A model generated the notes under the pieces. It searched no databases, was not told where the DNA came from, and saw nothing but the letters and a program-made list of their open reading frames with translations. Below are positions 38,747-39,919 of a stretch of DNA of 64,000 nt, piece by piece. Made by a program: the position numbers and the translations under genes. The number at the start of each line of letters is the position of its first letter. The stretch's first letter is position 1. The DNA is from Candidatus Nitrosopelagicus sp. (lineage in GTDB: Archaea > Thermoproteota > Nitrososphaeria > Nitrososphaerales > Nitrosopumilaceae): positions 1 through 64,000 of the forward strand of contig JAOJYB010000004.1 of assembly GCA_028242535.1 (NCBI GenBank), given 5' to 3'.

Positions 38747-38968
38747 ATGTATCCTGAAAATATTCGCTCACGTGCATGGTATTTAGTTCCAATTTTCTTT
38801 GGGTTGATTGGCGGAATCATTGCATACTTTGCAATAAGAAGAGATGATCCTCAAAAAGCAAAAAAATGTTTATGGGTAGGAATCATTTTAACTGCAATTA
38901 ACGTTATTGTAAATATTTCATTAGTTTCCACAGGAGTTTATGAACAAGATTATAGCGTGAATGTGTAA
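38747..38968 (+). CDS. Two-helix membrane protein (73 aa)
   Basis: Two hydrophobic segments (residues 11-28, 'WYLVPIFFGLIGGIIAYFAI', and 41-60, 'KCLWVGIILTAINVIVNISL') are joined by a basic loop 'RRDDPQKAKK', so both ends should face outward. A family of very similar short proteins is common in thaumarchaea; no function is known. The stop codon overlaps the perfect 30-base palindrome at 38968. Confidence 0.6.
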   Translation: MYPENIRSRAWYLVPIFFGLIGGIIAYFAIRRDDPQKAKKCLWVGIILTAINVIVNISLVSTGVYEQDYSVNV

Positions 38969-38997
38969 ATGTTTCTAAATTCGAATTTAGAAACATT
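38968..38997. repeat. Perfect 30-base palindrome
   Basis: Left arm AATGTTTCTAAATTC (38968-38982) is followed directly by its exact reverse complement (38983-38997), with no loop. It begins on the last base of the stop codon of the two-helix membrane gene. Twenty of its bases are repeated at 39886-39905. It could be a bidirectional terminator, a protein-binding site or an element end. Confidence 0.85.
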
Positions 38998-39047
38998 ATT
39001 AATTTGAACGTATTAAACTAATTATATCATGAATAGTTTTGTTCTTC

Positions 39048-39491: not shown

Positions 39492-39881
39492 TCAGAAAAA
39501 TCCAATTTGTTCGTAAAAGCTAAACCCCCTCCATATCACCACCAGTTTACGAATAGACCATATTTTCAAAAATGCCAAAAAACACGGGGGGTTGAACATT
39601 TGTTCGTAGATATGCGAACCAAAGGTCAAAACACCACCATTACCCATTACAACATAGTATGTTTATTCAAGTCAGGCGTAAAAGCTAAACCCCCAATTCA
39701 CATCAAAAAATATGAAAAAATTACCCAAATACCAATAATTCCAGCTGTCAAAGGATACCAAAATTTTGGAATATTTTGCGGCTTAGAATTTGAGAATATA
39801 CCACACTTGTTATCATTTGGTTTCACGTGTATATTACATCAAAATTTGCTTTAAGTGATACGAAAACCCATAGTGTTAGAT
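39492..39881. other. Repeat-bearing intergenic stretch with possible RNA structure
   Basis: This 390-base stretch holds an identical 18-mer, CGTAAAAGCTAAACCCCC, at 39512-39529 and 39677-39694. A GGGGGGTT at 39586-39593 lies between them and could pair with either AACCCCC. TTTGTTCGTA occurs twice (39506-39515, 39599-39608), TTCGTAAA/TTTACGAA forms arms at 39510-39517 and 39546-39553, and GTTCG/CGAAC at 39603-39620. A 115-codon frame from TTG 39507 is open across it, but its composition (rich in Cys, His, Phe, few acidic residues) is unlike neighbouring proteins. Confidence 0.5.
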
Positions 39882-39919
39882 AAACAATGTTTCTAAATTC
39901 GAATTATGAAATATTGTTT
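39882..39919. repeat. Imperfect 38-base palindrome related to the one at 38968
   Basis: The two 19-base arms meet at 39900/39901 and match at 16 of 19 positions. AATGTTTCTAAATTCGAATT is identical to the first 20 bases of the perfect palindrome 918 bases upstream. The T-rich right end is next to the stop of the convergent PPOX gene at 39924. Confidence 0.75.

Follow-up and report, generated by a model that had tools for sequence, protein, structure and literature searches.

A conserved element of about 200 bp, normally found once per genome throughout the Nitrosopumilaceae, lies in the stretch of DNA analysed here (64,000 nucleotides, called the window in the following; its genome measures about 1 Mb and is assembled in 25 contigs). 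We give roughly an even chance to the reading that it is a single-copy, cis-acting chromosomal DNA locus to which protein binds at multiple sites, most likely for chromosome maintenance. It normally has one copy per chromosome, a fixed geometry and a family-wide occurrence, as is to be expected of a single-copy protein-DNA site. The Nitrosopumilaceae are archaea of ocean and soil and belong to the most abundant cells on Earth; to our knowledge, the segregation and resolution of their chromosomes is largely unknown. The element would offer a direct handle on these processes via its putative binding protein. No published description of it was found in the open-access literature.

The original prediction started from an 18-mer, CGTAAAAGCTAAACCCCC, which occurs exactly at 39512-39529 and 39677-39694, the copies being 165 bases apart. 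No further copy exists in the 64 kb, even with 3 mismatches allowed, and the number of matches expected from 100 shuffles is 0, so that two copies are far beyond chance. An inverted copy of the G-tract, GGGGGGTTGAAC (39586-39597), lies between both 18-mers as described. The duplication of TTTGTTCGTA (39506-39515 and 39599-39608) and the arms TTCGTAAA/TTTACGAA, which had likewise been pointed out, are present in the window. Concerning the interval 39492-39881 that was proposed as a whole, a real unit exists, and it covers about half of it (39496-39697); the right half holds a separate small open reading frame (ORF).

The element is composed of three G-boxes with the consensus GGGGGTTKARC, arranged in the order A, B, A' on the minus, plus and minus strand, and of a second motif (motif 2) with one copy near each G-box and a fourth one in the middle (Table 1). 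Motif 2 appears in the variants TTCGTA, TGCCTA and TGCGTA. The same set of variants is seen at all four copies, and the copy at A' is found in both orientations. The conserved block between B and A' has the family-wide form CCAA..GTCAAAACACC. The span from A to B amounts to 79-81 across the family, and A' always follows 86 further on; the distance from A to A' is 166 in most of the family (165 in the window). Between genomes, the boxes are about 91% identical and the spacer from A to the middle motif 30%, with lengths that are nearly fixed. The geometry of the element is rigid, while the spacer sequence is free. Outside the element, conservation drops to about 0 bits within approximately 20 bp. 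In genome G026, of which 1.2 of 1.23 Mb were covered, GGGGGTTKARC occurs exactly three times, each time inside the element.

Table 1. Parts of the conserved element, with positions in the window.
Feature	Positions	Strand	Remarks
Whole conserved element, ~200 bp	39496..39697	.	Match of profile R1, E 5e-41
G-box A, GGGGGTTTAGC on minus strand	39519..39529	-	Alignment A1 columns 29-39, nearly invariant
G-box B, GGGGGTTGAAC on plus strand	39587..39597	+	Alignment A1 columns 99-109
G-box A', GGGGGTTTAGC on minus strand	39684..39694	-	Lies 165 bp from A, at a constant distance from B
Motif 2 beside box A, TTCGTA (other genera TGCCTA)	39510..39515	+	
Motif 2 copy, middle, TACGAA (TTCGTA on minus)	39548..39553	-	
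Motif 2 beside box B, TTCGTA	39603..39608	+	
Motif 2-like sequence beside box A', AGGCGTA	39674..39680	.	Orientation varies between lineages
T-tract/A-tract TATTTTCAAAAATG, from middle motif to box B	39561..39574	.	Conserved as TTTTTTCAAAAA
Block ACCAAAGGTCAAAACACC, conserved, lying between boxes B and A'	39618..39635	+	

A search of related genomes, which had been proposed for the 18-mer, recovers the whole arrangement across the Nitrosopumilaceae with fixed spacing. By BLAST, most genomes of the window's genus and other genera of the family proved to carry the element. A strict A...B pattern matched 93 of 250 family genomes from 20 of the 22 genera, and a looser pattern matched 113 of 400 genomes of the order, every match falling into the Nitrosopumilaceae; the reversed controls gave 0 matches for both patterns. 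In about 160 genomes from 16 other families of the order, the looser pattern had no match. Profile R1, which was derived from 47 elements by sequence alone, detected the element in 127 of the 137 near-complete genomes of the family. All ten misses are draft assemblies, and each of the 24 single-contig genomes of the family carries the element.

A scan of 84,980 named species returned the Nitrosopumilaceae and exceptions that can be explained. Matches in Chitinispirillales were rejected as a different palindromic repeat, and those in Clostridia and Proteobacteria because they are without box A'. A viral copy was rejected as well, the sole match in IMG/VR being a chance match that has no box A'. 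On one contig binned as Phycisphaerae (L265), a complete element is found at family spacing, probably because a Nitrosopumilaceae genome contaminates the bin. Apart from this contig, the full three-box form was seen only in Nitrosopumilaceae, which makes the element a possible marker of the family. Additional degenerate or expanded copies occur in G147 and G199 (9% contaminated); they are located on L345, L346, L347 and L351, and L346 and L351 bear transposase-like ORFs. In G101, two overlapping pieces of the element are found on different contigs.

An undescribed structured RNA or switch was the interpretation offered in the original prediction. The element is indeed undescribed and strongly conserved; a switch between alternative stems is not borne out, the covariation being 0. 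A free-standing non-coding RNA gene, which we consider rather unlikely, would form an H-type pseudoknot from an A/B stem and a stem between the middle and B copies of motif 2, with A' competing for B. In most species, A and B are complementary at 9 of their 11 positions, and the order in which the two stems cross is that of a pseudoknot. The strongest argument for the pseudoknot is that the middle and B copies covary strongly as an inverted repeat (284 versus 237.5, sd 6.8, with rows permuted), and the identical changes at this pair, 9 of the 16 joint ones versus 3-10 for other pairs of motif 2, may hold a weak pairing signal. However, when 45 disjoint sister pairs are compared, 16 changes in both copies and 55 in one stand against 15-21 and 55-84 for other motif 2 pairs, i.e., joint change of the middle and B copies is no commoner than elsewhere. 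As to the C/G stems, whose covariation had been named as a check, RNAalifold retained for 47 homologues only AACCCC/GGGGTT, six invariant pairs with a covariation term of 0. In the A/B stem, two positions vary; they are mismatched in 33 and 13 of the 47 sequences, as often as shuffled ones. Folding yields z = -1.90 and +0.58 for the two strands, and none of 4227 Rfam families matches at E<=1. Spacer lengths are fixed where RNA loops should vary, the flanks show a conservation of about 0 and no conserved promoter, and next to the same genes the element occurs either way round. Like the structured RNAs of Rfam, the element is non-coding and conserved and has complementary tracts; unlike them, it shows no covariation by RNAalifold. 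Judged by sequence, a transcript would explain these facts less well than repeated protein sites, and a fixed landing pad for DNA-binding proteins fits the layout better than an RNA switch.

A 115-codon frame across the interval had been left open as a possible protein. It is non-coding, since stops interrupt it in all relatives compared and the A-A' distance of 166 seen in most of the family is not a multiple of 3. Inside the interval, adjacent to the element, a separate 42-aa ORF is located on the minus strand (39698-39826, start GTG at 39826). It resembles a membrane protein, persists with conservative substitutions in several Nitrosopelagicus relatives and looks real; a search of NCBIfam gave no match for it.

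In 24 complete genomes, the element is located 0.396-0.479 genome lengths away from the main cdc6 gene and thus in the terminus half. In G026 (1,232,128 bp) it lies at 577 kb. In this genome, strand asymmetry at fourfold sites has its switch points at cdc6 and, half way round, at 605-615 kb; the latter is approximately 35 kb off the element, which therefore does not set the termination point; forks do not stop there. Genes in G026 and G036 keep their distance from the origin across the whole genome (rho 0.82), which makes a location in the terminus half weak evidence for a terminus function; it may reflect inheritance only. Together, this correlation and the offset of about 35 kb weaken the case for a terminus role from the antipodal position. 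A KOPS-like polar use of motif 2 was rejected, the strand bias between chromosome arms not being consistent. Provided that replication starts at cdc6, the G026 leading strand (L039-L098) is pyrimidine-rich at fourfold sites, with a GC sign opposite to that in most bacteria.

The genes on both sides point towards the element in nearly all loci, as they would around an insulator or a bidirectional terminator that separates convergent operons. We regard such a function as improbable: one copy per genome is found although convergent gene pairs are many, the element is far more elaborate than a terminator, and its flanking genes change. It is inverted in place between the end of the ribosomal operon and the same distal genes (L132 versus L141), and in G036, of which the first half was covered, it lies about 229 kb from the ribosomal operon that it adjoins elsewhere. 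The element is independent of its orientation and, in some genomes, of its neighbours.

A dormant or accessory replication origin appears very unlikely. The element shares with the origin recognition boxes (ORBs) of archaeal oriC its G-rich boxes, clustered in both orientations around an A/T-rich stretch of non-coding DNA, a likeness that is superficial. The ORBs of the family have the form YGCCTRG-AnTGGAAATA-AAGGGG (L034, L035, L355-L370), in which YGCCTRG next to the dyad is similar to motif 2. These true ORBs sit upstream of cdc6, whereas the window's element lacks the TGGAAA dyad and is far from cdc6, on the other half of the chromosome (0.40-0.48 genome lengths away in the 24 genomes); the hexamer TGGAAA is found in 6 of 47 homologues. 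The strand asymmetry shows a single extreme on the origin side, namely at cdc6, and according to reviews just one origin has been mapped in N. maritimus (PMC4010727, PMC5333045). A dif-like site, at which a tyrosine recombinase would resolve chromosome dimers, is mostly refuted, and we attach next to no weight to it. One site per chromosome in the terminus half would suit the XerA/dif systems of Thermococcales and Sulfolobales, XerA is absent from Thaumarchaea and their own dif unknown (PMC2958812), and the in-place inversions of the element could be read in the same direction. However, dif is a site of 28 bp with two arms in an 11-6-11 architecture, which is not seen in alignment A1, and the element is 200 bp long with three G-boxes; a PF00589 recombinase was not found in three carriers (G026, G036 and G065), and the strand switch is 35 kb away. 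The SegAB system of Sulfolobales resembles our case in the idea of a protein-bound segregation site, but SegB sites are many and scattered (PMC12284271) and the element is normally single. A SegB centromere-like site was rejected, as the AGASTCT palindrome of the SegB core is absent from all 47 homologues. The element is not an ORB, not a dif site for a tyrosine recombinase, not a SegB site and not a member of Rfam.

Rigid spacing with free spacer sequence, motif variants shared among the copies and independence of orientation lead us to favour the multi-site protein-DNA locus. The three G-boxes and the four copies of motif 2 would be putative sites for one or two sequence-specific proteins, which may build a higher-order protein-DNA complex at this single place. 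Such a complex could serve chromosome maintenance in the terminus half, i.e., segregation, the handling of dimers or catenanes, or anchoring, and its proposed role is not the regulation of a neighbouring gene. More tentatively, we suggest a new maintenance locus specific to the Nitrosopumilaceae, centromere-like or terminus-organising, with a putative G-box-binding protein that would take the place of the Xer/dif or SegAB of other archaea; we hold this to be possible rather than probable.

A palindromic repeat around TTTCTAAATTCGAAT is present on both sides of the neighbourhood, at 38966-39003 and 39882-39919. The 14-mer TTTCTAAATTCGAA occurs once in G026, where it adjoins the element.
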